A stretch of DNA of 64,000 nucleotides, taken from contig JAOTOM010004793.1 of NCBI GenBank assembly GCA_034440615.1, forward strand, positions 110,001 through 174,000. Direction: 5' to 3'. The notes under the pieces were generated by a model. That model was not told the DNA's origin, did not search any database, and saw only the letters and a list, made by a program, of their open reading frames with translations. Origin of the DNA: Ashinkailepas kermadecensis. Its lineage: Eukaryota > Arthropoda > Thecostraca > Neolepadidae. The translations under genes and the position numbers were made by a program. Positions 24,286 to 59,600 of this stretch are shown one piece after another (the stretch's first letter is position 1; each line of letters opens with the position of its first letter).

Positions 24286-24289
24286 CAAC

Positions 24290-25443
24290 ACTCTCGTGAG
24301 CCGCAAATAATGACAGTCTAATCAAGATTAGCTGGTGTTTGTACGTCCGATGGAAGCGGAACAGGAGGTCGCAGCTGAAGTGGCCAGTGCCTGTAGGTGG
24401 GATGGTGGCCCAGGTCGGACAGCCCACTGGACGTACGAGCACATCACGACGTCACGAGACGCAGCCTAATTCGGTACGCATTGGGTCTTGCTGAACAGTT
24501 GCGGCGGGCGTATGATGTTGGAAAGGAGGCGTTAGAGCATGTGCGGTCATGGAAGGTTAGCTAATTATTTGATGCCTCTGGATAAACTCGGGAACGAGAT
24601 AATTACGAAAATTATTTTCGTCAAACGACCGATTTTTGCAGACATTTTGTAATAAATGCATTTTCCCGAATCTAAGAATATTTTATGATGTAAATCATGC
24701 CTTACCTAGACTCAAATGATGTTAGCTATTCATATCTGATAAGGTTTTTGAGATCCCTGTGACGCTCTGACGACCGCCCAAGCGGTCACAACTGTCCCAT
24801 TCACCTGACCACAACTGCTCCAGCAGCTACGGTCGCTCCAGCGTTGGCGAAAAAGACAGCCCAGCGATAGCTGTGCTGACGGTCGCTCGAGAAGTGCCAG
24901 TTGCTTCGTCTTGGACCGGGATGACACCGGTCAAGCAAGAAGAAGACAACATAATTTGCAGAATGCTGTGTGTTGGGAATAGCTGGTCAGGCATTTTGTT
25001 ACTCCTTCCCCTGTCCCTAAATCTTCACTTATTTTTCCTCACTAGCATTCATACTTCATTTTGAGGTAGTATGGAAGTGTCGGATAGGCGCAAAAAAATG
25101 TGGGCTTCACCCTCTCAATTAAACAATGTCTGAATATAGAAAGATAACAATTAGTTGCATGGAGATAAGCAATCATATTTTTAACTAAGCTAATAATATT
25201 CATACCAAAATTCATACCCAGAGTGTGAATTTTGTGAGCAGAAAAGAGCCCGAGGTGGAGGCCTTCCCGTGCAGGGATCGGGATCTAAACCCAGCGTTCC
25301 GCCGTCGGTGTGGTGTCGGTGCTCGGAGATTTCGTGTTGACGGAACGCTCGCTGGGCGCTTAAATTATTCATTGAATTTATCCACTGCGTCCCGCCTCCT
25401 CGCCGCTTCCGGTGGCCAAACTGGACATTTTTCCACAGGAGGT
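24290..25443. other. No gene seen
   Basis: No recognised gene or repeat. Confidence 0.5.
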
Positions 25444-25633
25444 AAAGTGCGACGAAGGGGCATCACATAGCTCCGCAAACCACGATGGCATGCCTGCTGT
25501 GAACCATGCTACACATGCTACACAACGCACGTGTATGCAAAGTGCGACGAAGGGGCATCACATAGCTCCGCAAGCCGCGATGGCATGCCTGCTGTGGACC
25601 ATGCTACACATGCTACACAACGCACGTGTATGC
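25444..25633. repeat. 95-bp tandem duplication
   Basis: AAAGTGCGACGAAGGGGCAT starts at 25444 and again at 25539. The two 95-bp copies differ at only a few bases, for example CCACGATGG versus CCGCGATGG. Confidence 0.95.
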
Positions 25634-25981
25634 TGGTGCAGTGCTCGTTTTTTAACGTGTCCGCTGCAGCGGCCGCTGTGGAGCTACGACGACATTCGGT
25701 CATCTAGATGCAGACATAGATGCCAGACCTGTACATCTAGATCTCGCCATCTATCACGCACGATAGCATTTCATGCCGGGCCGGACGCATCTGTGTTGCG
25801 GTACTGGCAGCACGGGAAAATCAGATCAGAGTAGTGACTGGACTCCGTTGGCCATCCAGGAAACGAGCTGATTCTATTATAGATTCTTTTCTGGTTGCAT
25901 TTGTGTAATGATGTTGGCTGGGCATTTCTGGTTATATCTGTGTAATGATGTTAGCAGGGCATCGTGCGGCGCAAAAGTTGT

Positions 25982-26157
25982 CAGATGTTCAGCACGGACA
26001 CAGATCCGGTGCTGCGGTAGCAGGTCAGATGTTCAGCACAGACACAGATCTCCTGCCGCGGTAGCAGGTCAGATGTTCAGCACGGACACAGATCCACTGC
26101 CGCGGTAGCAGGTCAGAGGTTCAGCACGGGCACAGATCCGCTGCCGGGGTAGCAGGG
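25982..26157. repeat. 44-bp tandem repeat, 4 copies
   Basis: CAGATGTTCAGCACGGACAC occurs at 25982, 26026, 26070 and, with changes, 26114, a spacing of 44 bp. Confidence 0.95.
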
Positions 26158-26323
26158 CATATACCCCCACTTAGTCAGACAACTTCGTGTTCTCGTCTTA
26201 CATGCCGACTTGCCGAAAATGGCCAAAAACACATTGGATGTCCCACACTAATATCAAGTCTTGGATACGGGCCTTGTTCAGTCAGGCTAGTCTGCATTGG
26301 TGGATGTGCTTAGTGAGTGGGAA

Positions 26324-26550
26324 GGCGGTATTCGCCGGCGGTATTCACCGGCGGTATTCACCGGCGGTATTCATCGGCGGTATTGGCCGGCGGTATTCAT
26401 CGGCGGTATTCACCGGCGGTATTCACCGGCGGTATTCATCGGCGGTATTCACCGGCGGTATTCACCGGCGGTATTGGCCGGCGGTATTCACCGGTGTTAT
26501 TCGCGACCGGTATTAGCCGGCGGTATTGACCGGCGGTTTTCGGGGACGGT
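26324..26550. repeat. 13-bp minisatellite, about 17 copies
   Basis: The unit GGCGGTATTCACC repeats every 13 bp, with variants ending in ATC, GCC or TAGCC. All three + frames stay open through it because the unit carries no stop in any phase. Confidence 0.96.
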
Positions 26551-26559
26551 ATTCGCCGA

Positions 26560-27001
26560 ATGCCGCCGAATAATCTTCGACGAATGATCTGTATCACAAA
26601 CCATCAAGCAGGGCCATTTTATTGTACTGGTTGACTGTCGCTTCTCGTGAGATGATATCCAATTCCGACGACTTCATTGTCGTACGCTGGTAGTGACTGT
26701 TGCATATGTGTTGCTTATGCAATGTCGATGACACTCGAACACTTTGGCAAATTACCCGGCAGTGCTCGAGTGGTTGTACATAACCATAAACTGTCGGCCG
26801 CAAAACCAATCAAATCAAGCTCGGCGTCAGAATTCAGAGCCACTGTAACTGCCCCAGCAGACCCAACAGCTCGCCTAAAACGGCACCATCTTTAATGAGC
26901 TCAATGGAGCAATGTACAAGCTGTATGCTTCCCAATGCATATCGACAAAATTGCTGCCAACCTGCCTACTTCGCCCCCTCTCAACAAACTCGGCTTGACG
27001 T
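26560..27001. other. No gene seen
   Basis: No recognised gene or repeat. Confidence 0.5.
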
Positions 27002-27240
27002 CACGAGTCGTGCAGCTTGAACTCGGCCTGAAGTCACAAGTCACGCATTTTGTTTTAATCTTTATCAGAGGCAGAGTGCCATCCGCTAGAGATTTGTTAT
27101 GTTAAAGAATTGGTTACGTTAATCCGGCTTATGTGGCATCCGGTTATATCAAGGAAGCAAGAGAGGAAAGAGGAGACGTCGGCAAACAAAGAACGTGGCG
27201 TAAAGGGCCGATACATACATAGCATACAGGTTCATACACG

Positions 27241-27270
27241 GACATACATACATACATACATACATACATG
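27241..27270. repeat. (CATA)n microsatellite
   Basis: About seven copies of the tetranucleotide ACAT in the 3' UTR side of the LINE. Confidence 0.9.
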
Positions 27271-27693
27271 ACAATCAGAAGAACACTTGGAGGGTGGACA
27301 GCATCGTAACCTGCCGAGAGGCTCCACTGCCCACCCGCGACCTAAAAGGCGAAGCGGAGGCCCGGCGCCCAGGGCGAGTCGTAGGCGTCGGGCTCGACCT
27401 TGTATGTGTAGGTGCATGTTTGAGTTAAAGCGTGGGAAAACCTGAGAAGGGGAAAAGCCAAGCAGCTAGTTAAAAAACCAAGCGCAATTTATTAGGAGAA
27501 CCGTCCGTTTTTGCCAAATTGGATCGGTCTCTTCCTACCTAGTGTAAAATATCCTATATGTATGTGTTTTTCGACGACGGAAAGGAACACGTGTGTAACG
27601 CAGTCATACAGCTAACATAGGGTGCAACGCGTGTTATATATCCATCAACTTCTCATCAAATCAGGTGGAGCCGGGTAACGTGTGACAGAGAAA

Positions 27694-30600
27694 TCAAATT
27701 AGTTCGGAAAGCTTGGTATTGTGTAAAAACCGGAGGAGCAGATCGAGGAGTGCCGGGTGGTCATTCCCGAGGAGTGCCCGGAGCGATATCTGCATATGGT
27801 TGCAGTTGAAATAATGTAGAATAGCGTGGTGATGAGGAACATATGCTGGACATGTGAGTAAAACGTGGGCGACAGTGATGCGAACTCGGCATGTGGTGCA
27901 GATCGGGGGCAGACGTGATCGATGAAAAATATAATTGTGTTTTAAGCTGGTGTGTCCGAGGCGAAGTCTGGCGAGTACCATCTCACTCAAACGGGAGTGT
28001 TGGTGGGAAGAGGGCCAGTTCCAGAGTGTAGGTTTGATAGTGTGTAGGTGTGTAGTGTCGTTTGACCAGCAGGCCTGGAGATATTTGTGGAATAACATAT
28101 TGGCTACAGTAAGGAGATCACCGGGTGGTACTGGGGCATGATTATCCTGGGGGAGGTCTATTGCCGCCCTTGCAAGGCCGTCCGCGCGCTCGTTACCCGG
28201 GATACCCCTATGTCCAGGGATCCAGAAAAGAGTGAGCTGTAGGTGTGCGTGGTTGTCATGATAGAGGTGTCGGATGGCGTGGAGTGTGGGGTGTGTAGTG
28301 TTGTGGATGGCCGCGAGGGCGTCAACGGGGATCGTGAGTCAGTGCAGATTGTGGTAGGGGTAGTGATGTGTCGTGTTATGATGTGTTGGAGGCAAGTGAG
28401 TATGGCGACTAATTCTGCTGTGTATACCGAATGATGTACTGGTAATTTGATTTGGCCGGTATCGGGCTCACCGCACCAGGCGGCGCCCGTACCATTGCTG
28501 GTACGGGAGCCGTCAGTGTAAAAGAATGTGTGTTGTGGGTGGGCCTTGTGATATTCAAAAAAATTGACTTGAACGTCCATGGGGTAAGTAGGGTTTTGTT
28601 GTACCGAAAGAGATACTCGAGTTTGGAATGTTTCATGTGCCAGAATGGGAGAATGGGGGGGGGGGGGAGTTCGGTCAGGGGTTACATCAGGAAATTTTAT
28701 GGTGGATTTGAGAACTTGCTTCAAGTGAATAGCAATGCTGTAATTATTTCTTATTTTGGAGAGCCGAACCGGGGGTTTAGACCACGCGACATTGGAGTGG
28801 TGATTTGGTTGTCTTGTTGTTCTGAAGTGGTACCTAACGAGTTGTAGTGTTCTGTGGTGTTGTAGGCTAGGGAGATTGACCTCACCCAGGAGACTGGTCA
28901 TAGGTGTGGTGCGGTGTGCTTCGGTGATGAGGCGGAGTGGGTGATTTTGTATGCATTCTAGTGATTTGGTGAGTGAGGGGGATATATGATCGAAGATAAA
29001 GCTTTGTATTCCAGGATTGAACGAATCAGTGCAATGTAGATTTTACTAAGGGTAGTCCTGTCTGCACCCCAGTCGCGCCAGGAGATGCAGCGCAGGGTAT
29101 TAAGACGAACAGCGCAGCGCTGTTTAATATAAGTAATATGGGGGCCAAAATAGAGTTCTTTGTCTAGAATAACTCCGAGATACTTGAAGGAGGTTTGGAG
29201 GCGGATAATTTCATCGCGATAGCGGAGCGGTTTAGTAGGGGGATGTATCTGGGAAGTCTGGTAAAGAGCATTGTGACCGATTTAGTGGGGGAGATCTGTA
29301 GCCCCCAGAGGGAGCACCATGAATCAATGTGATTCATGGCGAGTTGTATGTAATGGTTAGCCGTGTCTGCTAATGGATGGGTACACCAGATGGCTAAATC
29401 ATCGGTGTATATATAATATTTTAGAAGGGGAGAAATCATGTGAAGTTGGTCCAAAGCATCATTAATCATAATGAGAAATAAGGTTGGTGACAGAACGCCG
29501 CCTTGCGGCACACCTTGCTCAGGAGTGTGTGGCTGGGAATAGATGTTGCCGCAGCGGACGACAAAGGAACGGTTTTTGAGATAATTCGCGATGAAAGTGG
29601 TCATTCTGCCCCTCATACCAATTCGGTGCAATTTAATTAAAAGGGCAGAGCTATGTACTGTATTAAATGCGGATGTTAGATCTAAAAAAAGGGGCGATAG
29701 TTTCGAATTTTTTCGCGAAACCACGCTGGATCGAATCTACAATTTCGAGCAGGTTGTCAGCGGTGCTTCGTTTGGGTCGGAAGCCGCTCTGAAAAGGGGA
29801 GATAATTTTGTTGTTTTCAAGATAGACTCTAATTCGTCTATTGACCATGCGCTCAAATATTTTGTAAGCACAACTAGTGAGAGAGATAGGGCGATAGCTG
29901 GAGGGGAGGTGTCGAGGTTTGAAATGTTTGGCGATAGGAATGATAGTGCTGGTAGACCAGGAAGCTGGGAAAGAACCGTCAGTCCATAATTGATTTAGTG
30001 CCGAGAGAAGTTTGTTTTTGCCGTGGTCAGAGAGTTTTGAAAGAAGGGATATGCCAGTCGATCCGGTCCAACAGCTGTATTTGTTGCTTTGGAGAGGGAT
30101 AAATTTAGTTCATAGAGGGTAAAGAGGGCGTTGTAGGGCTCAGAGTTGTCGGAGCCAAAGTGACAAGTGGCAAGAGTGTTGCGGAGGAATGAGGTGGTGT
30201 GCTGTGAGTATTGAGCGTTGGAGGATATGTCAGAGTAATAGGTGGCGAAGTGTTCCACGACGGCTGTAGGTTCTGTTATTTTCTGTTGATTAATTGTCAG
30301 TTGTGGGAATGCGCGGTGTGGGGCTCTGCCATTGGTGAAGGACCTAATTTGAGTCCAGATTGGGAGATGGGGTAGTTCGGTTGAATGTGTCGGAGTAGAG
30401 TCGCCAGTTGCGTTTTTTGGCCGAACGGATAATTTGCTGACAACGTAGTTTTGCCTCGCGGGCTTCTACCATGTTTTGTACGGTGAGGTTTTGACGAAAT
30501 TTCCGCTCAGCCCGCCGTCGCAAGGCGACGGCTCGTTGGCACTCGTCGTTCCACCACGGCTCGTGTTTACGGTCGGATGGTCGGCGAGTTTTGGGTATGT

Positions 30601-31428
30601 GTTTTTCTGCCGCGAGTAATATGGTATCAAGCAATGCTGAAATCGAGGGGTGAGACTGGGGCGGGATGAGATTATCAATTTCCTGGGAAAAAGATGGCCA
30701 TTTCGCTTTGCGAACTTTCCAGTTGGGAATAAATATACGATCTCTAGACTGGGCTGAGCGTTCGAGTGTGACGTGGATGGGGAAGTGATCACTAAAAAGG
30801 GGGTCGGGTTGAACGTGCCAGGAGAAGAGTGGTGAGACAGAAGCTGAAGCTAGGGAGAGGTCAATGGCAGACGGACGGAACGGGGCGATGTCTGTGTTGT
30901 GTGTGGGTGTTTGGTCATTTAGGAAGACCATGTTGTGGGTGTTGAGGAGTGTTTCAATGTGATGTCCGCGCGGAGATGTGTTGTGGCAACACCATGCCTG
31001 GTGATGGGCATTGAGGTCGCCCAGCACCAGACAGGGGTGTGGGAGGAGATCGAAGAGATTGGTCACAGAAACTAACGATAGCGTAGAAGAGGGGGGAAGA
31101 TAAAGAGTACAGTGAGCTCTAGTTGTGCAATTTGGACAGATACTGCAACGAAATTCAGATCATTGGGGATGGTGATCGCACGATGAAGAAGGGTATTCGA
31201 GACATATAAGGCAAACCCGCCGCCGCGGGGTGTAGAATTTCTGTTGTGGGTATAGAGGGTATAGCCAAAGATATTAAAATTATATGGATCATTGTCGCGC
31301 CATCTGGTCTCCTGAACGGCGGCAATCAATGGTTTATTTTTGATGATATATTCCTTGAATTCTGCCCAATGGGATATGAGTGACCTCGTATTCCATTGGA
31401 GCAATAATTCAGTGGCGGGTGTCTGCAT
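27694..31428 (-). pseudogene. LINE ORF2: endonuclease, reverse transcriptase, RNase H (broken)
   Basis: Read on the - strand in several shifted frames. The endonuclease begins at 31428 (LLLQWNTRSL, AAVQETRW, RGGGFALYVS) and continues after a frameshift near 31070 with LVLGDLNAHHQAW and SDHFPIHVTL. Reverse transcriptase motifs follow: QSGFRPKRSTADNLLE near 29780, DLTSAFNTVH near 29680, GVPQGGVLSPTLF near 29510 and the catalytic YTDDLAIW near 29400. FKYLGVILDKEL near 29180 is in another frame. RNase H shows FYTDGS, YTAEL, CTDS and WIPGHRGIPGNERAD (28530-28170). A C-terminal part with Cys/His residues ends at 27694. At least five frameshifts separate these parts. Confidence 0.88.
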
Positions 31429-31451
31429 TAATGGTGGTGGTGCTCACGCCC

Positions 31452-32757
31452 TCACAGGCGTGTGTGTGGTGGAGAGGGCATGTCGGAGTCGTTCGTCTCA
31501 TACGAGTCGGACGACCCCGGTGAAGTGGAGGGCGGCTCTGGATCCCCGGGTGGGTTCGGGCTGGGGGAACGGGAGAGGTGGCGGACCTTAGGGGTCATGG
31601 AAGGGAGGCGACCCTGAGGGGGCGGTGTGGAGGAAGCCCTTGCCTTCGTTGGCGGAGCGGCATGTTGTCGGTGGGGGTTCCGGATGTCAGAGGGTCCCGC
31701 GACGCGGGCAGGACGCATGGCCGATGGGGGCCGGGGTCTCCACTGTGTTGGAGGCCGCTCTGTTTCCACGCCCTGGAGACAGAGCGGGGGCCGGGGGACA
31801 GAGGGGCCCGCTAAGGGGGCCAGGCGAGAGGCCGGATGCAGGGGAGAAGAGGGCAGGCTGGGGTCGTACGGGGGCGAGGAGCCGCCTCGGCAGGGGTCAG
31901 CCACAGGGTGGCCGAGCGGGCCCCCCCTGTGGCACCTTTGCGTCGAGCCATGCCGGGCACCGGGGGGATGAGGCCGGATGGGGCCCCATGCAGGCCGTGC
32001 ATCGAGGGACCTCGGATGCACAAGTGTCTGTGAGGTGCCCCTCGGCACAACGCCCACAGACGGGCTCTCTGGCGCGACATGCCTTGCCTAGGTGGCCGTA
32101 CTTTTGACAAAAGCCACAGCGGGCCGGGGGCGGGGTCCAGGGGCGGAGGGCGATGCGTAGGTAGCCGGCCATGATGTAGGCGGGCGGGGCCTGGGTCCGG
32201 AAGCCCAGCTTCAGTACTGGGCCGTGGTGGGGACGGCGGCCGAAGCGGGTGACTTCACACACCCCTTGGGCCTGCAGCTCGGCCAGGAGCTCTTCCTCGG
32301 AAATCTCCGATAGCTCGGGTGCATATGCCATCATGTGAACGAGATTCAACCGGTCCGCCAGTTTTACCTTGACTGGAAAGTCCATAAACCTCTCCAGGTT
32401 CATGAGAGACCGGACCTGGGGGGCCGCCCTGACTCGGACAAGCAGGGCCCCGGAGCGGAGGACCTTGGCGGACGCCACTCCGCCTGTTCAGTTGTCCAGC
32501 TCACGGGCTATCCCGAATGGGGAGGTGCGGGACCACGGGCCCTCCTTCTTGGTTACCAGGATGAAAGACTCCCCCTCTGGAGGGTCGCGGGAGGGGGAAA
32601 GCGGGCTCCAGGCTGGGGCCGGCGGCCTCCGTCCTCCTGGTGGGGCTGGGGGTCCCGGGCATACTGGGGCAGGATGGGTGCGCTTACACCAGAGGGGAGT
32701 GGGAGGAGTGTACGTGTGGGGAAGGGCGCCCTGAGGGTGTGCGAGCAAGATAGGCAC
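31452..32757 (-). pseudogene. LINE ORF1, gag-like protein with zinc knuckles (broken)
   Basis: The - strand frame starts near 32757. It has a Pro-rich N-terminus, then FILVTKKEGPWSRTSPF, a TGA stop near 32488 and LRSGALLVRV, typical of the RNA-binding region of I and Jockey ORF1 proteins. Three zinc knuckles follow around 32140-31960: CGFCQKYGHLGKAC (C-x2-C-x4-H-x4-C), CGRCAEGHLTDTC (C-x2-C-x3-H-x4-C) and CTACMGPHPASSPRC. The Pro/Ser-rich C-terminal part to about 31452 is in a shifted frame. ORF1 proteins bind LINE RNA; this copy is a pseudogene. Confidence 0.85.
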
Positions 32758-33596
32758 CCTGAAGGGGTGCTACAAGGAGAGGTGTGAAAAGAAGTGACGT
32801 GGAAAGGGGGAGAGAGACACAGAGGTTTGGAGGGATGGGGGTAGCTGAGCAGAGGCGGGCACAGTCACGGTCCGAAGACCGCTAGCCCGATCCTTTAAAC
32901 CAGAAAGGTACCTCTGTTCGGCTCTATCCTATTGGGTGGGATGGGACAAAACAATCAAAGTTGACCGCCGATACTAGTCGGTTTTCCGATGGCACTCGAA
33001 AGCGCCGCAAGGCCGACGGGGGATGGGAGGGGAGCTGCGCCGACTAATCCGACGAGCAACCGACAAGTGGCGTCGGCCGGCTAGTCCGGCTAACAACCAA
33101 CTAGTGGTCCGGGTGGCTGACGTCACCCGGGGGGGCGGAGCTTCCCGTAGATGCCCTGATAAGGACACCTACGAGACAGCTGGGGTGGGTGGAAGGGGAA
33201 GTGAAGCGGCGGGCAACTTCTGCGCTTGATCTCCCTTGATATCAATCAAAAGGGTCTTGTCAAGCCTCCTGATCCTCCTTCCTCTCTTCTTCCACGAGTC
33301 GCGCAGCTTGAACTCGGCTGCACTTAGCCCATGACATCACAGATAAGCCCGTCACTGCACCCTGGTGTCCTGCTGACAGCGTACGGCGAGAGGAAGCCGT
33401 TCCGCCCTGCATCGGTGCATTGCGGTGCAGTAGGTCGTGTGCGTGGTGGATTGGAAGTCCAGTCGCAGCACGAGCTGGCCTGATCCAGCATGCAGAGGGG
33501 AACAGTGCGGTATGGTCTATTCAGGTCGAATCCCCGCGCAGGTGCGCCATCCTGCATCGAACTGGCCCGTCGTCACTGGTGCCTCCTTCGGTCAAG

Positions 33597-35509: not shown

Positions 35510-36743
35510 TGGTGTGAGGCCAAGTTCTCAGCACACATCCAGCCAAGACGCTACAACAGATCCGCTACATGGTCAAATTTAGTTCGTCCGAAAATAACTT
35601 TTGCTCCATAGTTGATCATTTTTTAAATCCGAGACATTATTTTGGGTATATATCCGTATACCGAAATGCAGTACCGGATCTGAGAGAGGACCAAGGTATT
35701 GACGAGCACCGAGATGACAGATGGTGGCAGGTGGCCTCTGAGATGCGATAGACCGGCCAAAGTTCCGAAACATCGTCTGGTAATGGTGAAAGCATTCGAG
35801 TCCCAGCTGAGGCTGCGATCAAAAATGAGCCATATATTTTTTACTTCTAAATAGGGGAGCAATTGTTGATCGCGAAACGTTACAGTGAAGTTGGGGAGAA
35901 TGCGGAAATTTTGTTGGCTGCCAAAGACCATCAGCTGGGTTTTCTCCGCATTTACTTTCAGACCGTTACCGCGGAACCAAACGTGGAGGGAGGCCAGAAC
36001 GTGTTCCAACTCGGCAGCGACACTTTGGATGCGAGTTTTGTTTCCGGTGACCAAAATTTGTGTGTCATCTGCATACTGAACGACCACTGCGCCTTCATCG
36101 AACAGACTGAGGTCGTTGGCGAAGACTCAGTAGAGCAAAGGGCCGAGGTATGAGCCTTGAAAAACTCCGATGTTGTTTGGAAGTGGCATAGATTTTAGGC
36201 TGCGACCCAGACTGTCAGTGAGGCTGACACTCTGGGTGTGGTCTTTCAGATAGGCCGAAAACCATGAAATGTCAATACCGTGCTGGCTTAATTTGGTCAA
36301 AAGTTTTGAATGGTCTATCACAGCAAAGCATTTGCTCAAGTCCAGGAGGCAAAGGAGGGACATCTCACCACGATCATTGGCCGAAAGGATCTGGTCGGAT
36401 ATGGATATCAGCGCGGTCCCCGTTGAGTGACGGGGGCGGAAACCATGCTGGGTAGGAGAGAGGAGGCGGTTGCTGGATAGGTAGGCGTAAACCTGCGGAT
36501 GGACCGCACGCTCCACAATTTTGGCAATGATCTGGACAATAGAGATTGGCCGGTAGTTTGATGGGCTGGTAGGGTCACCGGATTTAAAGATGGATAAACT
36601 ATGGAGTGCTTCCAGGAGAATGGGACGTCGGCAGTGGTGAGGCTGGAGTTGACCAAATGCAAAAGCACACTGCCAATGACGTCAAAACTCAGCCGGATCA
36701 TACCCAAGCTGATGTCGCTGACGCTGGTCATGTATCTTCCGTG
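35510..36743 (-). mobile_element. Truncated non-LTR retrotransposon, reverse transcriptase fragment
   Basis: On the - strand: FSWKHSIVYP near 36610, then HGFRPRHSTGTALI, LLDLSKCFAVIDHSKLL and GVFQGSYLGPLLY (36500-36130), a frame break, then the catalytic YADDTQILVTG near 36080, and LVLSQIRYCISVYG near 35680. After a TAA near 35630 the frame continues with KMINYGAKVIFGRTKFDH to about 35560, where a TAG follows. Both late stops are one transition from Gln codons, consistent with cytosine deamination. The clade is uncertain (CR1 or Jockey-like). Only the reverse transcriptase is present and the copy is dead. Confidence 0.85.
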
Positions 36744-38829
36744 GTGACCCGATGGCTAAGCTCTAATTTCCATGTTGAAAGTACATACATTTAGCTTTAG
36801 GTAGGCTTTCAAGGCGTCTGGCGCTCCGTTCGTCCGTGTGAGAGCCATGGCGGCATGTTTCCGCTCGGTGTGGTGCAGACGTGAGCGGAGCTGCAACTAT
36901 CCCACTGTAGTTCAGCGAGTCTGGGTTATTGATCTACGCGCGGCGGCCGCCGTTTTGTACCGTACCACGGCGTATAGACAGTTTCCACGGTTGGCATCAT
37001 TAGCTAATTGTTGAACGGCTGGGTATCGTAACGGCTGGGCTTGCAATTTTCGTGATTGGGTGGCGATGTTCAGTTTGGCTTTATGTAGATATACTGGCGT
37101 GTGCCAATTATTCCTCCGCGTCGGATGTGTACATCACGGATAGATCGTGCCCGAAACTTGATTTATCTTGCACTAGATGACAATTTTGTGTTTGCGCTGG
37201 TAATAGACTGCACTCAACATTAGCGTTTTCCTCGCGTCATATTTCCGCAGACGGTGGGATACCAAGTTAGGTTGTTTCAGTGCTTGGTGTTTCTATTTCG
37301 CGTGCTTCTTTTGCAGCATAACACGCATCTATAGTTCGAATGATTGGGAGCACCAATTGAGCAACGTGAGAACTGACTGGAACTGACCTTTTGAAGCGGA
37401 GTCACATTTTTATCTGCCGGGTCTCAACTTTGGCAATTGGCTGGATTCGGAGACTTTTAATACCGAAATGTGGAACCACGATTTGCGGATTACATACTAT
37501 GGCTCCAGGCACCATTGAAATGTTATCCAAGCACTACCGCTAACACCATTAACCCTAGCCTCCATTGAGAAGGCGGCAGAATCTGCCCCTGTCGATTTTA
37601 TTTTAATTGCTCGAAATTGAGCAGCGATCTCAATTGGAAATGTGTCGGTGTCTGTTCCACATCCATTCCACAACTTGTGGCCAAAAATTAAATTCTAGCT
37701 TACGATGGATCCGGCGTGAGTGACGTTATAGTGATGTCACCTCCCGCGATTTTTGAACGAATTGAAGGGTGTACAGAGAAAAAAGAAACGCTATAACTCC
37801 ACGGACCAATATTTTAGCCATCGAATTTCGCGAATTGACAGCGGATTGAATGGGCGAATGCTGTCATCTCACAATTCTGCTTTTTCCTGCAGGGTGGTTG
37901 TGAAAATTTGCAAACTCAAAACATATATTTATTGAAAGTTGTTTACTTTCCCGAAAAATGACAGGCCCAGATTGTGAATATTTAAAAAAAATTCACAACA
38001 ATGATTCTCAAAATGACCGAGATATGGCTTACCAAATATTACATGATGGTCTCAATGCTGTACGAAAGTCAATGTCGTACGTCGTCGCCGCAAAGTTTGC
38101 GGTTATTGTGGAGCCAGCATCACTGCAACAGCCTGTGAAGTTGTTTGAAACTTTGTAGCCCATGCCACTTTAAATTTGTTTTCAGAAAGGAGGCACCTGC
38201 CTTGAAGTGCTAGGAAAAGTGTGTGATTGCCTTTGTTGGGTTCCGGGCACAATTCTGGCCACGAAACATGCACCGCAGGTGCATAAAATCAGGTCCAATA
38301 TGTGACCTCAGAATACCACGTGACCCACCACGACCTCGATCTTATCTTATTCATTTGTTCTTTCCTTAGCTATCTTAATATGTAAGGCGCATTCATCCAA
38401 TTTCTGCCTCTGTGCTGTTTCATTGTATGATGCTCGACTAAAATCGAAACTTCGCCAATTAGTTCAAGTCTTAAACTTCGGACTGACCTGTGATATCACA
38501 GATAACACTTAGGTAAATATGCTTGACTTCTTTGAACTCATGCTGTTCAGATCGCTTGCCGCCAAAAGCAAAGAAATCGGCCCGTAACTTCTTGATGTTA
38601 ATCATGCCTACCCAAAGGGGTCTGGGTAAACATTTCAAAGAGCTTTTTTATTAAATGTTATTTATACGGCTTTTGTCCGGGTGTGCCTGTAAAATCTATT
38701 CTAACTCATGCTTTCCATACCAGAAATATCTACAATTGTCCCGCAACGCAATATTTTTACAGCTTGTTACAATTCATAACAACAGTTGCAACAACATGTG
38801 CTATGACTAATGCATCGTTTTACCGGCAG
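36744..38829. other. Intron or upstream region of the receptor gene
   Basis: No reading frame with a TM1-like segment is recognisable. The sequence just before 38830 (GCATCGTTTTACCGGCAG) works as a 3' splice site, so at least the right part is intron. The CpG-richer stretch at 36840-36970 could be promoter-like, but nothing in it decides this. Confidence 0.5.
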
Positions 38830-38937
38830 GCGCACAACGCAACAGCCATTTTCATAATCAACCTGAGTGTGAGCGACCTGCTGCTGTGCTGCTTCAACCT
38901 GCCACTAGCCGCCTCACTCTTCATTCACCAGGCCTGG
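38830..38937 (+). CDS. moody: moody/Tre1-like GPCR, exon coding TM2 and ECL1
   Basis: This 108-bp exon codes for 36 residues starting AHNATAIFIINLSVSDLLLC. LSVSD carries the conserved Asp of TM2, and the exon ends IHQAW, the ECL1 Trp of class A receptors. The 5' edge is AG at 38828-38829 after a pyrimidine-containing stretch; the 3' edge is TGG followed by GTAAGC at 38938. Both edges fall between codons (phase 0). Residues and exon borders match the moody and Tre1 receptors of insects, where moody acts in glia at the blood-brain barrier and Tre1 in germ-cell migration. The 5' exon or exons coding for the N-terminus and TM1 are not identified. The last 50 bases belong to a tandem repeat that continues into the intron. 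Confidence 0.85.
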
Positions 38938-39447
38938 GTAAGCGCTGCTTCAACCTGCCACTAGCCGCCTCACTCTTCATTCACCAAGCCTGGGTAAGCG
39001 CTGCCCCAACCTGCTACTAGTCGCCTTACTCTTCATTCACCAGGCCTGGGTAAGCGCTGCTTCAACCTACCGCTAACCGCGTCACTCTTCATTCACCAGG
39101 CCTGGGTAAGCGCTGCCCCAACCTGCTACTAGTCGCCTCACTCTTCATTCACCAGGCCTGGGTAAGCGCTGCTTCAACCTACCGCTAACCGCGTCACTCT
39201 TCATTCACCAGGCCTGGGTAAGCGCTGCCCCAACCTGCCACTAGCCGCCTCACTCTTCATTCACCAGGCCTGGGTAAGCGCTGCTTCAGCCTACCGCTAA
39301 CCGCGTCACTCTTCATTCACCAGGCCTGGGTAAGCGCTGCCCCAACCTGCTACTAGCCGCCTCACTCTTCATTCACCAAGCCTGGGTAAGCGCTGCCCCA
39401 ACCTGCTACTAGTCGCCTTACTCTTCATTCACCAGGCCTGGGCAAGC
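38888..39447 (+). repeat. 56-bp minisatellite made of exon end plus 5' splice site, 10 copies
   Basis: The last 50 bases of the TM2 exon plus GTAAGC are repeated in tandem. GTAAGCG occurs at 38938, 38994, 39050, 39106, 39162, 39218, 39274, 39330 and 39386, exactly every 56 bp; the last copy at 39442 reads GCAAGC. Two unit types (with CTACCGCTAACCGCG or CTGCTACTAGTCGCC) mostly alternate, giving a 112-bp dimer pattern. Each copy keeps TTCATTCACCAGGCCTGG before the donor. Using a later donor would add 56 bp, shift the frame and hit a TAG eight codons after the true end. Confidence 0.96.
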
Positions 39448-39451
39448 CTCA

Positions 39452-39655
39452 GCAGGTGCCAGCTTCTACCCACATCCTCTCATTACCCAGCAACGTAGCA
39501 TTTTACCCACCCAATGCCCATTCAGTGCGAGCGTCCGGTTCCATTAAGTCTCAACAGGTGTCATTTCCTACACACATCCTCTCATTACCCGGCAATGCAG
39601 CATTTTACCCACCCATTGCCCATTCAGTGCCGGGGTCCGGTTCCATCAGACGTCC
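39452..39655. repeat. 102-bp tandem duplication
   Basis: CACATCCTCTCATTACC occurs at 39471 and 39573, and the surrounding 102 bp are duplicated with about 85% identity by eye. It directly follows the splice-donor array. Confidence 0.9.
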
Positions 39656-40053
39656 GAAGCTGGCGACACCATGATCAAAAGTACCACATTCTACCAGAGC
39701 CAGCTGTCCCAGTACTCTACCTGGCTCTACCTGTCTCTCTTGGTACTCTACTCCAATCCGCAGTATGCTCTTGGAGATCCATTTTACTCATTCAGGCATA
39801 TATTGAGCGAACTGTTAGATGACAATTGTGTTCGTAATTACTGTATTTAAAGCAAAAAAGTCGGACATGAAAAGTTTGCCCGTGTGATGGAAAGGTGTCC
39901 AGTCGTTATCCACCCATCATTACCGCAAAAATATGACATCTACATTCTTGCATTCTTCTCTTATTTTTCGATCACTTCCTTGTTGTGGCTTTGAATCGTC
40001 ATTCACAGCCTTTCCATGCCTGAAAGATTCTATCCTAGATTCTAGGATAGAAG

Positions 40054-40385
40054 TACGTGAGGACAAATGTACGTCTGGCAAATGTATGCAAGCGCAGATA
40101 GACGTAAGCGCAAATGTACATAAGCAGAAAGGCACGTATGACAAAGGTATGTATGATTAATATTCGTATCGCACACTTACGTGTACCAAATATGTGTAAG
40201 CACATTTACGTAAACGCCACTGTACGTATGCGCAAAATTAGGTAAGCGCAAGTGTATGCAAGCGCCATTGTACGGAAGAACAAATCTACTTGTCACATAT
40301 GTTCCTGAGCGTAAATGTACATGAACGCAAATGTACGGAAGAGCAAATATACGTATGTGCAAATGTATGTCAGTAAGAATAAGTG
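40054..40385 (+). repeat. Degenerate GTACGTAAGCGCAAAT array, copy 1
   Basis: Diverged units of about 16-17 bp resembling GCGCAAATGTACGTAA. The sequence right after it (TAGAATTTTTTGGCTCGCCAAA at about 40420, interrupted here only by base changes) resembles the left flank of the related array at 44262, so the two may share element borders. Confidence 0.75.
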
Positions 40386-40629
40386 TTGGATTTTCTCTTC
40401 TCAGTCTTGGACTCGGAGAGTAGAATTTTTTGGCTCGCCAAAACATGGAGTGTATAACCTTAGAGAAGCACTAAGTAATGGATGGTATATTTTGGGGGTT
40501 TGGCAAAATATGGTGTATACCCTTGAAACACAAGTAATGGAGTGTATACATTTTACAAATAATGAAGTGTACACATTTCCTAAAATGCAGTGGATGTTTC
40601 CTGGAATGAAGAATAAAACACCATCTAAT

Positions 40630-41840
40630 CAGTTTACGCTATGTTGCCTAACTCAAAGCCTTTTTTGGCATTATTTTGCTCACAACCTGAAAAGTAAGCA
40701 TTTGCGCAGAAAACAAGTGGTTCCATCATCTTAGTCATCTTCATAAACATGGTACTCCAAAAATATCAAACAAGCCCAGAAATTATGTGTGATGCTGTTA
40801 GCAGCAGTGCCAAGAATCTTGGCAAGATTTGTCCACAGCATAGTAGAGAAGTATTATTGCAGTTTAAACTAACAACAAGGCAAGTTTTTTTTTTAATTTT
40901 TTTTTTACTGGTATTATCATGCTTTAAGGTAGCAACCAGTCAAGTTTTTATACACATTTTCCTCCATAAAGCAAGCAAATTGGTTAGGTTTGCTTAGGTT
41001 AGGTTAGTTCAGTTTTTAAGTTGGAAAATTTTGGGATTCTTTTAATAAATAAAAAATAAAATTATTTTTTCTTCAAAAGCAGCTAATGTTAGGTTAGGTT
41101 AGGCTTGATTGGGTTTTTTTTAATTAATTCTTTTCTTCAGAAAACAAAGTTCTTTGCATTTTTTTAATTGGAAAAAAACCTTTTCTCCATTGGGAGGTTA
41201 GGTCAGTTTAGGTAATGTTGCATTTTTATTTTATTTTTAGCATTTCTTTTTATGCTATGCTACGTAACTCATAGTCCCTTCTTGGTGTTATTTTGCTCAC
41301 AATCTGAAAAGTAAGCATTTGAACAAACAAAAAATAGTGCTCCCATCATCTTAGTCACCTTGATAAACATTGCATTTGAATGATATATTCCAATAATTCA
41401 TAAAACACCTTAAAGCATAAATTTGCCTATTTTACCTCCATGAAGCATACAAAGAAGGGGTAAGGTTTGGTTAAGTTATGTTAGGTTAGGCTTGTGTAAT
41501 AAGTTTTTTTATGAATATTTTTTAGGGGAAATTTGTCAAAAAAAGTTTGTTTTTTCTTCAAAAACATTTCAGGCTATCTTATGTTAGGTATTTCATTTTG
41601 AACTTTGAGAAACAAAATTGATTAGAAATTTTTAGGTACAAAAATTGTTTTCATGCATGGAAGGTTAGGGGAGTTTAAGTTAGGATATGCCCGACCTTTT
41701 TTTGTTATTGTGAGCATTACTTTTTAAGCTATATTAGTTATTACCAAACTCCAAGCCCATTTTGGGTGTTATTTTTCCTAGCAAGTGAAAAGCATGCATT
41801 TGCAGAGGAGACGAGTGGCCAAATCATGTTCAGCACATTC
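40630..41840. repeat. TTAGG-bearing AT-rich dispersed repeats
   Basis: The same family as 13853-16930. The core TTATTTTGCTCACAACCTGA lies at 40671, with further copies near 41289 and 41765, each followed by a CTTCATAAACATGG-like end. Runs of GGTTAGGTTAGG are seen near 40998, 41092 and 41480. Confidence 0.75.
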
Positions 41841-41849
41841 ATAAACATT

Positions 41850-44180
41850 GCACTAAAAAAAACAAAGTCCAAGGAATGAGAAATTACAGCACCCGATTTT
41901 CTTGTAATTCGCAACCAGACAAAAAACCGAAAGAACAATGAACCCAATCTTACCTCACCTGATCGAAAAGCAATGGAAGGAAGTAACGAAGGGAAATAAC
42001 CACCACGCGGCGGGATAATACGGCACTCAGGGTTAATGATATTTAGTGCGTCGGATATGGACAATTAGCATAGCACGGCGGGGAACTATGACCTACAAAA
42101 GTCTCAAAATTAAAATGTGATAAAAAGAATATCGAAAAATAGCTCAAGGAATAATTGTTTTCTTCAATTATCTTAACTCTGTACCTTAGTATCTTAAATC
42201 TGGGCCGCACAGATTAAATCAACACAGTCAAATTTTATTGTTCGCGGAGTTGTAGAATATCTGTGTCCGAGCGGCATAAACAGTATTTGTCACGAATACG
42301 TGGCGTTCTGAAGCAATGTATGTCAGGAAATCAAAAGACACCGAAATTTCTGGTTATCTGGTGGTCTATTGTGCCACAAAGTCTTAACAGGTTTGGAGAA
42401 TGTCTTGAATGGATTTAGCTAATTTTCACGCGTAAATTTTAGCTGATATCTTTTATTTAGATCCGTTGTGATGCTTCAAAATTCAGAAATATACCTTTTC
42501 TTTTCTGTAAGCTGATGTAGAGCATCCCAATCTTTCAGGAAGCATTCAAAATTTAAGTATTCATTGCCGTTCTTCGGAGTGGTTTAAAAAGCTCCCGAAA
42601 GAGTGGAAGCTGAAGAGGCATGATTCATCCTCGGCCAAAAGTCTCTAAATTTCCAATCGGTCCCGGAGAGTGGTAGTTTTCTTTACTAGCCAGGTGACGC
42701 ATGGAAGCTACCTTCATTTGACGAGGGATTATTTCATGTTTTGAATTTGGAAGTCCAGAGATGGTATTTTGTGGCAAATGTTAGTTGTGCAGTGCGCTGG
42801 TGTTAGGATGTAGGTATTTGGATAATTAATGGACCGGGAAGCGGGAAGTGGGACTGAAGGCCCTTAAGTGAGAGTAGTAATTCATATCATATCGTATCGT
42901 AATTCCTGTGGTGCGGTGTCGACCCGTCGGTGGGTGTCGTCCTACGTAAGAAATTGGGCTCAATTGAATTGTTCACATTGAATGCCTCTCATTGCCGTTG
43001 GTGTGAAAGGGTGAACCATGATAATATTGTGATACCTTACCTATGGATACATTGCACGGACGTAGGTAGGTTACCTAGCACGTACCTACTTACCTACCTA
43101 CTACTTGGTGCAAATCTAGCTAGATAAGTTTTACCTAGGTGCATCTGCATCCCCATGCAAGTGCACATGCACCCAGTGGCATACCTAGGGTCTTCATTAA
43201 TTGGTGGTTCTGTAAGGGATGAAGCTTTCTGATTGTTTTGTTCTTGTTTGGACAGAATTGTTTTTTTATTTTGAAAGAACAATCGTTTTCAGCAGACAAA
43301 TGAGTTGGAGTTAGGGGCTGGTCTGCTTATTTTGGGGTCTGAATACATTAACTTTTACTCCCATGGGTTTGGTGTCACTCCAGTGCACCAAAGCATGCAT
43401 TCATGCACATTTATTGTGCACTTATGAAGTGTTTCAGGAGATTGTTGGGTGCACCCATCCCATCCCACACTGAGTACAATTTTGTTGTTTTTGTTTGCCT
43501 CCCACTTCATAAAAAACTGCCATGCCAAAGCATGACTTGCACCGACTGCGATATTCGGAAAATAATTCCCTTCATGCCTCTCTAATTGCGAGTTGTATGC
43601 AGCCTACTCTAGTTCTCTTTCTAGTTTTGGCCTTGCATTCTTCTAAGCACTTCTGGTCGGGGTATTTTTTTGTGAATGGAAATCATATGAATGAAGGTAC
43701 GTGTGTTTAGTTATTCACTTGCACTAGACAATTACACTTGCACCATTATACACTTGACTTGCACCATTATATTTTAACATATTAAATGTTCTTATGGTCA
43801 TATGCATAGTGATTCCAACTTTAGCTTCCATTCTGCTGGTATGCTGTCATTCTTCAACTCTCACAGGCATCTCATCTTCTGTTCTGTTCCTTGCATTCTC
43901 TTTGGATGAATGTTTCTGCAGCTCTGATGATCACCTGAAATAACAAATGTACATTATTCTCAATGATGTTGCTAAGTTGTTGTGCTAAGGACCCAAATTG
44001 GTTACACAAGATGAAGATTATTAGAACTGGTGGATCTCATTCTCACTACTAGCCATAGATCACCATATAGCCCATAGAGCATGCTGCTCTGTGGGCTATG
44101 TTAGCAATTATCGCTATTTGACAGTGGCAGAACTAGGTGGGATTTCTTGTTATGCATTAGCTCTTCATCTCGTATTTAGC
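41850..44180. other. Intron sequence, no gene seen
   Basis: No reading frame or RNA gene. ACCTAGGT- and TACCTACC-like short motifs cluster at 43065-43145. CAGTGGCATACCTAGGG at 43174 resembles the end of a hAT-type transposon, but no partner end was found. Confidence 0.5.
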
Positions 44181-44261
44181 AACCCAAGGAGTGGATTTTT
44201 ATTCGGAGTGTATAATTCTTTGGACAGCCAAATGTCCCAAAAATTTCCATTTTTTCCAACG

Positions 44262-44590
44262 CTGGTAAGAATAATACGTACGCATAAATGTTGACCAGCG
44301 CAAAAGCACGTAACGGCAAAAGAACATGAGCGCAAAAGTACGTCGGAACGTGAGCCCAAAAGTATGTAATTGCAAATGTCAGTAAATCGCATATGTACAC
44401 AAGCGAAAAGATACGCATGGCAGACGCATGTATGCAAAAATGTTTCAGAAAAAGTACGTAAGCGCAGCTGTGCGTATGGCAAATGAACGTAAGCGCAGAT
44501 GTATGTATGCAGGACAAATATACGCAAGTGCAACAGTGCGAATACGAAAATGTGCGTACGCGCAAATACACGCGTATGCATCAGCTTTGC
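44262..44590 (+). repeat. Degenerate GTACGTAAGCGCAAAT array, copy 2
   Basis: About 20 diverged units of 16-17 bp, best seen at 44456-44570: CGTAAGCGCAGCTG, CGTATGGCAAATGA, CGTAAGCGCAGATG. All three - strand frames remain largely open and give Cys/Tyr/Ala-rich pseudo-proteins. Confidence 0.8.
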
Positions 44591-44899
44591 TAGCCCGCAA
44601 ACATGGATGATTACGACTCTTGCTGGTGCCAAAAAAAGTCCAACTAAATTCGCATGGGTACCGAAGCAAAAAATGCTGTTTTTCTTGCTCTCGTCTCGTC
44701 TCGCCTTGTTGAATAATCGTGCTGGCAAAAGATAATTAAAGGTGTTCCATAAGTATTTTCCTTTTAGGTTACATTGAATTAACCTGTCGGTTACATTTAA
44801 CTGAATTTTTGGCTATGCAGAAATTCTGATTGAGTTGATCGTAAGTTAAGTTAATTATTTTATAATTGTCTTAGTTAAGTATTAATCGTATTTTGTACC

Positions 44900-45150
44900 A
44901 CCTACATTTGCGCTTACTTACATTAACAATTGCTTACGTTTGCGTGTACGGACATTTGCACTTACGTATGCTTGCACTTACATACTTTTGGGTTTGCATA
45001 CATTTAGCATACATACATTTACGTTGACGTACATTTGCGCATACGTGTATTTGCCAAACGTATAATTGTGATTCCGTACATTTGCCATATGCACATCTCC
45101 GTTTACGTAGATTTACGTGCGTACACCTGCCACATGCACATTTGCTTTAT
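44900..45150 (-). repeat. Degenerate GTACGTAAGCGCAAAT array, copy 3, inverted
   Basis: The same units in reverse complement (CATTTGCGCTTACTTAC, GACATTTGCACTTACGTATG). Together with 44262-44590 it forms an inverted pair around a 310-bp spacer. Confidence 0.8.
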
Positions 45151-45571
45151 GTGGATTTGTTCGGTTACCAGTCACCAATGCTGGTGTCGAAAGTGGTGTT
45201 ATGAGGACAGCAGGGACGTAGCCTTATATTCTTGTATAGGTGCCCATTTCACATGCACCCACAAACCTACTTTGTGCAACCGTAAACCAGCTGTATGCGT
45301 TCACAAAAGATATATTGCATTGTGTCAACTGTTACGATTTATATAAGTTCATTGTTAAACGTAGAAAGCGAAGGCACTATTGATGACTGAAGTTGTACCT
45401 TAGCAAGCGAAATCATTGAAGGGTTGCGTAGCTTTTGCAAAACTTTTGTCTCCTGCAAGGGGTTTAGAGAAATTCCGGCCTTGAATCCCCGAACGTACAA
45501 AATGTCAAATGTTTCACTTGACATGCGAAGATGGAATGGTACAGGTCAAGCTACAAATAGCAGCGACATGT

Positions 45572-45893
45572 GGATGAGGAGAGAGGAGCGGGTGTAACGT
45601 AAAGGATGAGGAGAGAGGAGCGGGTGTGCCGTAAATGATGAGGAGAGAGGAGCGGGTGTGACGTAAAGGATGAGGAGAGAGGAGCGGGTGTGCCGTAAAT
45701 GATGAGGAGAGAGGAGCGGGTGTGCCGTAAAGAATGAGGAGAGAGGAGTGGTGTGCTGTAAAGAATGAGGAGAGAGGAGCGGGTGTGCGGTAAAGGATGA
45801 GGAGAGGGGAGCGGGTGTGCCGTAAAGGATGAGGAGAGGGGAGCGGGTGTCCCGTAAAGGATGAGGAGAGAGGAGCGGGTGTGCCGTAAAAAT
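45572..45893. repeat. 32-bp minisatellite, 10 copies
   Basis: GATGAGGAGAGAGGAGCGGG followed by TGTGCCGTAAAG repeats every 32 bp from 45573. Variants affect GTGCCG versus GTGACG and AGAGAGG versus AGAGGGG. Confidence 0.96.
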
Positions 45894-46262
45894 GTGTGCA
45901 GTGTGCGTCTACAACGGTTTTGAAAACAAACTCACACGGCTCAGAAGTTAATGAATACCTATAATGTGACGTTTACGGAGTACCAAATTCGCTGGTATTT
46001 GTGTAAGAGGATGATTGCGCTTATGATCACACAATTAAACCATGGAAGGTCTTCTTGTCACAATTTATCAACCTGAAACCCTGGTCGACATTCCGTCTTG
46101 CTCTACCGCACAGGGTAAGACAGATTTTCTAAGAAGCAATCTGAGCGCATGTTAACAAGCCCGAGTTCGCCAGATAAGGCATCAGAGAAAGGTTCCTTAT
46201 TATCGCCTCATAGGCATGGTGTGCGTGCGATCGAGTGACCAAATCACCCAGCACACCTTTGG

Positions 46263-46495
46263 GCAGGAGCGGTGGCCCAGTGGTCAAATGACCCAGTACA
46301 TCTGTGGGCAGGAACGGTGTTCGAGTTCCGAAATCGGACGACTCTCCGAGACTCTTCTCGAGACGAGTCTATCGAGACGAGTCTCTGAACCTCTTCTCGA
46401 TAAGCACTCACTACCAGGACTCCGACAAGCATCTGTTTGGTGGTAATGCGTCCAATAAGAATCCTTCGGAACTCTACCGTGCTTTTATATGCTAT
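46263..46495 (+). mobile_element. tRNA-like SINE candidate
   Basis: The sequence holds a perfect A-box-like TGGCCCAGTGG at 46273-46283 and a B-box-like GTTCGAGTTCC at 46319-46329, the spacing of an internal polymerase III promoter. It is followed by a body with inverted GAGACTC/GAGTCTC motifs and then an AT microsatellite, a common 3' end for retroposed SINEs. I see no cloverleaf good enough for a functional tRNA and no flanking duplication. Confidence 0.6.
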
Positions 46496-46498
46496 AAG

Positions 46499-46558
<60 letters not shown>
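46499..46558. repeat. (AT)n microsatellite
   Basis: About 29 uninterrupted AT units. Confidence 0.97.
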
Positions 46559-46563
<5 letters not shown>

Positions 46564-46974
46564 ATTTGGTTATAGTATAATATTAGTAAATAAGCTACAA
46601 ACAGCCGACATCACCAATACGCAAATGTAATTTTTGGCAAAATTTTGGCAAATTTTTGGCAAAATTTAACCACAATCACACGCTATATGTTACAACAAAA
46701 AGTAGATTCCATCAGACACCTGCAAGCTACCTCTGATCTTGCCGCACCTCCATCTTTTATTCGTCCTGGACTTGTGTATGTACCTGTGTGGCCTAGGTAC
46801 CGTGATTTTCAGTGTTACTTCTAAGATACATCGTCAATGTGCGTGTCTTAGATTGAATACTTCACACCGCTTTAAAAGACATGGATGAAATGATGATGCG
46901 AAACACAGTTACGTGCAGACAAACACAGGCAACGTTACGCCCCTGACAACTACTAAATGGCAGTTCTTGTAGCC

Positions 46975-47101
46975 AGCTGTGTGTGCTGTCCTCAGTTGTG
47001 CTGCTGTGTCCCAGGTTCACGGCCAGGAGCTGTGTGTGCTGTTCTCAGTTGTGCTGTTGTGTTCCAGGTACACGGCGAGGCGCTGTGCGTGCTGTTTCCG
47101 G
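46975..47101 (+). repeat. 53-bp duplication of the 3' splice site and exon start
   Basis: AGCTGTGTGTGCTGT starts at 46975 and 47028, and a diverged form (CGCTGTGCGTGCTGT) at 47081, spaced 53 bp. Each full unit includes TGTGTYCCAG, a GTNCACGG exon start and about 28 bases of exon. Two 3' splice sites therefore exist, AG at 47013-47014 and at 47066-47067. Only the second keeps the receptor frame; the first would insert 53 bp and shift the frame. Confidence 0.93.
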
Positions 47102-47198
47102 TGCTTCGGTACGGCCTTATTGCCGTCTCGCTCTTCACCATCCTCGCCATCACCATCAACCGTTACGTTCTCATAGCCCACCCCGACATATACTGCAG
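47068..47198 (+). CDS. moody: moody/Tre1-like GPCR, exon coding TM3 and NRY motif
   Basis: This 131-bp exon codes for VHGEALCVLFPVLRYG, which holds the TM3 Cys expected to pair with ECL2, and then TM3 ending ITINRYVLIAHPDIYC. NRY replaces the usual DRY of class A receptors; an NRY followed by V/I-L-I is characteristic of Tre1 and moody. It joins the TM2 exon in phase 0 and ends with two bases of an Arg codon (AG) before GTACAT, phase 2. The first base of the next exon (A at 58736) completes AGA. The start was chosen at 47068 because only this AG keeps the frame. Confidence 0.87.
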
Positions 47199-58735: not shown

Positions 58736-59148
58736 AATGTACCGACCGAAAATATTGGCGCTGATGATTACTGCCATCTGGCTAAGCGCCTTCGTCTTCC
58801 TAGTACCGACCATGACCGGGAGGTGGGGACACTTCGGCCTGGACCACACCATCGGCAGCTGCACAATCCTGCCGAACGCGGACGGCTCCTCACCGAAGAA
58901 CGCGCTCTTCGTGATCGCCTTCCTGCTGCCGGCACTGGCGTTCTGCGTCTGCTACGTGCGCATCTTCCTGATCGTGCGGCGAACGGAGCGGCTGGCGCGG
59001 CGCACGCCGGCCGGCGTCCGAGGTCAAGCCATCGCGTCCGCCGCCGAGGCCAGCGACGCCGCGACCGAGGTCAAGCCGAGCGCCGGCCGGACGACCGCCA
59101 ACCATCTGGTGGTGCCGCCGCCGCCGCCGACGACGACGATGACGATGA

Positions 59149-59189
<41 letters not shown>

Positions 59190-59600
59190 CCGGCAGCGGC
59201 GGCGGTGACGACGACGACGGGTCGGACGCGCAAGCCGAGCCAGGGCGGTCAGCTGATGGTGACGCTGACGTCGGCGCTGCGTCCTCGCAGCCGGCCGCGG
59301 CCGGCGGTCCGCATGTCGGCCAAGGACAAACGCCTGCTCCGGATGATCCTCGTCATCTTCCTGTCGTTCGTGCTCTGCTACCTGCCCATCACCATCGTCA
59401 AGGTGCTGGGCAAGGAGACGGACGCGCCCGTCATCAACGTGCTGGGCTACGTGCTCATCTACCTCACCACGTGCACCAACCCGGTCATCTACGTGGCCAT
59501 GAGCTCCGAGTACCGCAAGGCCTACCGCCAGCTGCTGGCGTGCGGCCGCCGCCGCTCCATGGTGCCCAGCGTGGCGCACAGGAGCGCCACGGGCGTCTGA
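58736..59600 (+). CDS. moody: moody/Tre1-like GPCR, last exon (TM4 to C-terminus)
   Basis: The exon follows GCACTCTTTTTCCAG; its first base completes the Arg codon of the previous exon, then 287 codons follow to TGA at 59598. It codes for TM4 (ILALMITAIWLSAFVFLVP), ECL2 with GRWGHFGLDHTIGSCTIL and its conserved Cys, TM5 (ALFVIAFLLPALAFCVCYV), a long ICL3 with a Thr/Ala-rich tract, TM6 (LLRMILVIFLSFVLCYLPIT), TM7 with TTCTNPVIYVAMSSEYR (NPxxY form) and a 20-residue Arg-rich tail. FGLD, SCTILP, SPK and MSSEYR agree better with moody than with Tre1 as I remember them. Third-position GC is very high compared with the introns. Assignment to moody rather than a paralogue is moderate; the GPCR call is firm. 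Confidence 0.92.
59128..59221 (+). repeat. (ACG)n trinucleotide repeat inside the receptor's ICL3
   Basis: An imperfect ACG/ATG/GCG repeat that codes for Thr with some Met and Ala. It adds roughly 30 residues of low complexity to the third intracellular loop. Confidence 0.95.

Follow-up and report, generated by a model that had tools for sequence, protein, structure and literature searches.

Tandem duplications of exon/intron borders, on either the donor or the acceptor side, have been described in amphioxus under the name of mirages, and many of their copies keep the AG or GT of the border from which they derive (PMC3087553). A comparable structure is described here from the barnacle Ashinkailepas kermadecensis, in a stretch of 64,000 nucleotides (contig JAOTOM010004793.1, positions 110,001 to 174,000; hereafter the window), where the 5' splice site of a coding exon in a predicted G-protein-coupled receptor (GPCR) gene stands as the first of ten 56-bp tandem copies. 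Amphioxus examples include Adh3, the globin genes BflGb6 and BflGb9, PGBD5 and TnC, with units that range from 10-72 bp in Adh3 up to 150-160 bp in BflGb6 (PMC3087553, PMC3902484), and in lancelet PGBD5 the repeats are found at 5' and 3' splice sites (PMC3902484). The length of mirages is reported to vary between haplotypes, and new introns, it has been proposed, might be built from them (PMC3087553). With regard to their consequences, Adh3 data and reverse-transcription PCR of globins were presented as suggesting undisturbed splicing (PMC3087553), and the Adh and TnC mirages are cited in a later report as being without aberrant mRNAs (PMC3902484).

Repeats that include a splice border have also been described in other organisms. 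The human gene 6-16/IFI6 contains a minisatellite with a unit of 12 bp. It is said, by the title of Turri et al. 1995, to provide multiple splice donor sites in the transcript. Two downstream repeat units of IFI6 are described as acting as donors, from which three mRNAs result (PMC4526556); the downstream donors of the human gene are thus reported to be used, whereas those of the barnacle array are putative. In human segmental duplications, internal tandem repeats located at exon-intron boundaries vary in copy number between paralogues, and are reported to yield alternative splicing or new introns (PMC2812944); like them, the barnacle array is a minisatellite at the exon-intron boundary of a gene, although the human set is defined by its paralogue copy-number differences. 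In potato, duplication of a stretch that crosses a splice border gave rise to an intron (PMC4974935), and as in that case the tandem duplication here lies over a splice border and carries splice signals, but a new intron arose in potato and none is shown here. An amphioxus gene with partial exons and splice sites inside introns (PMC2632668) is not used as a precedent, nor are PMC2206037, PMC5802833 and PMC12783039, and the literature searched, judged largely by title, yielded no crustacean or barnacle splice-site array, one crustacean title being concerned with coding repeats in prawn lectins.

On structure, the donor array fits the description of a mirage. As in amphioxus, the repeat lies at an exon/intron border and its copies carry splice signals (nine of ten donors are GT and one is GC; both acceptor copies have AG), but unlike the amphioxus cases it belongs to a barnacle gene, has ten copies, and is accompanied by a duplication at the other end of its intron. 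A preliminary description of this DNA had called the array unusual, a word now to be qualified by the precedents of amphioxus mirages (PMC3087553, PMC3902484) and human 6-16/IFI6; its account of a splice-site array stands for the donor side, and mentioned neither the 53-bp repeat on the acceptor side nor the known precedents.

The donor array was delimited by Tandem Repeats Finder (TRF), which gives a period of 56, 10.0 copies, 88% matches and 0% indels, and by alignment of the units (Table 1). Each unit consists of 50 exonic bases, the 3' end of coding exon 2, and the six intronic bases GTAAGC, the exon itself ending at 38937. The ten GGGTAAGC/GGGCAAGC sites are spaced by exactly 56 bp in the unit alignment; nine units read TGG/GTAAGC (the slash marks the splice border), the tenth reads TGG/GCAAGC, and donors 1-9 have the same nine-base donor sequence. 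As a repeat the array is beyond chance, because all nine + strand occurrences of GGGTAAGC in the window fall inside it. When the 907.7-Mb assembly was searched with the exon and first array units, only the best candidates being scored and common words skipped, five matches were returned, all in the donor array. RNA folding showed no sign of hiding the donors: a 631-nt stretch scored z -0.76 against shuffles, and 3 of 20 shuffles folded at least as well.

The units are mutually 80-100% identical, units 1 and 2 being founder-like and 98% alike. Identity is greater between units at lag 2 (94.0%) than at lag 1 (88.5%; order-shuffle p = 0.028), and growth in 112-bp blocks therefore fits the middle of the array rather than its whole length. 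An acceptor-like end, CACCAG, is kept in seven of the nine intronic units (unit 10 among them, with its GC donor) and is changed to CACCAA in units 2 and 9. Upstream of it, at columns 18-22 of units 4, 6 and 8, stands CTAAC, a branch-point-like motif. These results agree with the preliminary description in its ten copies, nine intact donors and GC-bearing tenth, and correct it in part elsewhere: the alternation of two unit types, which would mark growth by 112-bp dimers, holds for units 3-8 (unit 7 being mixed) and fails for units 1-2 and for units 9-10, the last two being of one type, and the CACCAG ascribed to each unit is missing from the two named above. At the end of the exon (38928-38937), and at the corresponding position of units 3-8 and of unit 10, CCAGGCCTGG forms a perfect 10-bp palindrome, present in 8 of 10 units, which is a possible contributor to instability of the array.

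Table 1. Features of the host gene and of the arrays at the borders of intron 2 (window positions unless another reference is given)
Feature	Position	Strand	Basis or remark
Exon 1, coding portion (with start codon and TM1)	C4296:67081-67254 (contig positions) = L012:7081-7254, outside the window		tblastn on flanks
Coding exon 2 (TM2), 108 bp, 36 codons, ends HQAW	38830..38937	+	open frame, AG/GT borders
Donor array, 56 bp x 10	38888..39447	+	TRF and unit alignment
Donor 1 (GTAAGC), probable functional donor	38938..38943	+	only open frame with acceptor 47068; gap-free junction in relatives
TAG met by all modelled transcripts from donors 2-10	38962..38964	+	isoform table; codon 45 of three-exon model
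Donors 2-10, in 56-bp steps	38994..39447	+	2-9 GTAAGC, 10 GCAAGC at 39442-39447; positions and 9-mers
Duplication at 3' end of donor array, 102 bp x 2	39444..39646	+	TRF; 87/102 identical
Tandem repeat across acceptor of donor-array intron, 53 bp x 2.3	46975..47096	+	TRF; repeat search
Coding exon 3 (TM3 region), 131 bp	47068..47198	+	tblastn, 89% identity with Pollicipes protein; AG/GT borders
Coding exon 4 (TM4 to TM7, stop)	58736..59600	+	tblastn with Pollicipes protein, E 7.7e-111
TM, transmembrane segment.

At the far end of the intron, the 53-bp repeat comprises two full copies (46975-47080) that are 91% identical and a partial third that lies in exon 3. Both full copies have an AG, at 47013-47014 and 47066-47067, that precedes GTTCAC or GTACAC. 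Both borders of one 8.1-kb intron are tandemly duplicated, the donor tenfold and the acceptor twofold. Intron 2 (38938-47067) also holds a 32-bp array of ten copies (45572-45890), a (TA)29 run (46500-46557) and other repeats.

The four exons of the host gene, whose borders were all set by homology and splice consensus, join into an unbroken reading frame of 425 codons with one stop, at its end. The gene spans 102.5 kb, and its introns measure about 81.6, 8.1 and 11.5 kb (lengths by subtraction). The region around exon 2 matches Pfam 7tm_1 (38818-38955, E 2.1e-7) and is 79% identical by tblastn to a Pollicipes protein (38815-38958), and the joined protein of 367 amino acids matches 7tm_1 with an E of 8.2e-41. 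The protein search found 256 relatives, and statements made here rest on the 120 that were listed. The top match is the 'moody-like' protein of the goose barnacle Pollicipes pollicipes, identical at 268 of 369 aligned positions (73%); below it among the matches listed stand crustacean and insect proteins, many of them named moody, and all listed matches with an organism name are from arthropods, some being without one. This one protein points to a barnacle as the host, and an origin in amphioxus was rejected on the same search. Because of the 7tm_1 domain and because the nearest listed relatives are named moody, the predicted product is a Moody/Tre1-type rhodopsin-class GPCR; among solved structures, those of GPR84 come nearest in sequence. 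Exon 4 includes a (CGA)n-like run (59128-59219), which encodes a threonine-rich segment, located between TM5 and TM6, where the alignment with the Pollicipes protein has a gap.

When the ten donors are combined with the two acceptors, the full frame is obtained in 1 of 20 cases, that of donor 1 with acceptor 47068. Donor 1 joined to the upstream acceptor leads to a stop at codon 90, and read-through past the end of exon 2 yields VSAASTCH and then, after these eight codons, TAG. The anatomy first proposed for the region (TM2 exon, donor, acceptor at 47068 and a TAG eight codons on) is upheld by homology and by the frame table. It had also been stated that any later donor adds 56 bp, shifts the frame and meets the TAG; the TAG is indeed met, but 56 bp are added by donor 2 only, and the lengths added by donors 4, 7 and 10 are divisible by three, these donors reaching the same TAG. 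In BLASTP alignments the QAW/VHG junction falls in a gap in 0 of the 118 listed homologues that span it, the other 2 of the 120 listed not covering it, which indirectly suggests that the gap-free junction reflects the ordinary product in relatives, although this gene may also give minor forms. Because of the frame and these relatives, it is donor 1 and acceptor 47068 that presumably make the receptor.

There is no firm evidence of coding or donor selection on the intronic copies. The exon-derived columns of the unit have 11 variable sites, representing seven non-synonymous and four synonymous changes. These proportions lie close to those expected under neutrality, in which about 69% of changes would be non-synonymous, 26% synonymous and 5% stops. 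The donor columns show no constraint beyond chance (one of nine variable, P 0.37), nor does the acceptor-like tract (three of 20 columns variable, P 0.30).

Arrays are, moreover, common at this locus. They occupy 17.9% of the window (17.5% when periods of 10 or more are counted). Over 200 kb of the contig, sampled as 20 loci with 5% N, arrays with periods of at least 10 take up 26.7%. Two of the five splice sites in the window lie within arrays at 17.5% coverage (binomial P about 0.21), or two of six when the exon 1 donor, with no array within 150 bp, is added; no claim is therefore made that arrays target splice sites. Donor-like content was surveyed in arrays with a period of 20-200 and 3 or more copies: among 100 non-overlapping arrays in 264 kb (200 strands), GTRAG occurs in at least 80% of copies on nine strands, and three of those nine, the donor array included, have GGTRAG.

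Neutrality is favoured because no firm constraint is seen in the intronic copies and because the locus is rich in unrelated arrays, and we infer that the structure is probably a mirage, neutral in effect, in a locus rich in minisatellites; its first donor and last acceptor would be those in use, and it would have grown along the following route. An initial duplication would have placed a copy of the last part of the TM2 exon, donor included, at the beginning of the 8.1-kb intron. Slippage or unequal exchange would then have multiplied the donor unit until there were ten, in part by blocks of 112 bp. The exon would still end in the 5'-most unit, and the remaining nine would be removed with the intron. 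The same process may have acted on a smaller scale at the opposite border, where the 3'-most, exon-proximal acceptor of the two would be used, and any leakage to inner donors would lead to a stop that precedes two exon junctions. The array is thus most likely harmless repeat growth, although an effect on the amount of receptor is conceivable.

Several observations weigh against this interpretation. The relatives used to judge the junction are mostly predicted proteins, and were retrieved with a query already joined at the junction under test. Nine donors are identical as 9-mers, and therefore the spliceosome must select among them by position or context. Columns 29-56 of the unit (tract, AG and donor) vary at 2 of 28 positions, of 12 variable sites in all (P 0.010), a stretch that was picked after looking and that gives P 0.052 when the split is placed at column 27; this result, the sole one that leans against neutrality, might reflect constraint on splice signals. 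Finally, the argument from a repeat-rich genome is based on 264 kb of one contig, and the repeat shares published for barnacles, as given in the sources, differ widely, from 3.53% in Capitulum mitella to 58% in Sacculina carcini.

The most substantial alternative is that the array acts as a rheostat, in which nine equal donors compete, part of the pre-mRNA is directed to the stop at codon 45 and to nonsense-mediated decay, and copy number sets the level of receptor. The sameness of donors 1-9 over nine bases is consistent with such a device, as is the single TAG, upstream of both later exon junctions, to which donors 2-10 all lead; human IFI6, with two downstream units as donors and three mRNAs, is a precedent (PMC4526556), and the low variation in columns 29-56, with the reservation already made about that choice of stretch, points the same way. 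Against these stand the amphioxus mirages, which are reported or suggested to leave splicing undisturbed (PMC3087553, PMC3902484), the variability of the donor columns, which is that expected by chance, and the abundance of arrays at the locus, and a rheostat is considered unlikely. Also unlikely is a broader proposal, by which the donors of intron 2 (nine GT, one GC) and its two acceptors compete, an unstable but heritable copy number tunes the level of the moody-type GPCR through non-productive splicing, possibly with variation between somatic cells, and mirage arrays are general in barnacle genes, having evolved independently of those of amphioxus.

The preliminary description had further suggested that the units act as 6-nt micro-exons, to which may be added steps of recursive splicing (CACCAG/GCCTGG/GTAAGC), either of which would insert Ala-Trp in frame and leave GCCTGGGCCTGG at the exon 2/3 junction. 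Retention of CACCAG in most intronic units and the branch-point-like CTAAC upstream of it in units 4, 6 and 8 are consistent with this idea, but the AG is gone in units 2 and 9, the 118 listed relatives that cover the junction have no insertion there, in opposition to the Ala-Trp proposed, and an exon of six nucleotides is hard to define, so that micro-exons appear very improbable. It is equally doubtful that the array is an artefact of assembly, with one or a few units on the real chromosome, even though two amphioxus arrays are reported to differ between assemblies (2 versus 7 and 3 versus 6 copies; PMC3902484). Units here differ by up to 20% and their variants are ordered, a pattern that false expansion of a single copy does not produce; the assembly search, with its best candidates scored, likewise places the array at one site only.

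If the host is a barnacle, mirages would be known from an arthropod as well as from lancelets, which suggests that they can form in any place dense in minisatellites and are not peculiar to lancelets. Interest in the locus lies in this probable arthropod case and in the duplication of both borders of one intron. Nine evenly spaced donors that share the same nine bases also constitute a natural test of how the spliceosome chooses, and should donor choice prove to follow copy number, the array would amount to a natural dial for the expression of a receptor, of a kind seldom met.

Other features of the surrounding DNA can be noted more briefly. A Pfam scan of 18000-33000 in two of six frames gave no match. 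On the minus strand at about 35900-36750, the peptide QYADDTQ can be read by eye near 36070; this motif is typical of reverse transcriptases of retroelements without long terminal repeats, and the region is possibly a decayed retroelement. Upstream on the contig lie pieces of a second moody/Tre1-like GPCR gene (L006:1928-2116, L006:5515-5661, L007:894-998 and L008:1275-1391), where none of the eight ends of the four matched segments, which are match ends and not proven splice sites, is spanned by an array; a 37-bp array stops 11 bp before the piece at L006:5515-5661.
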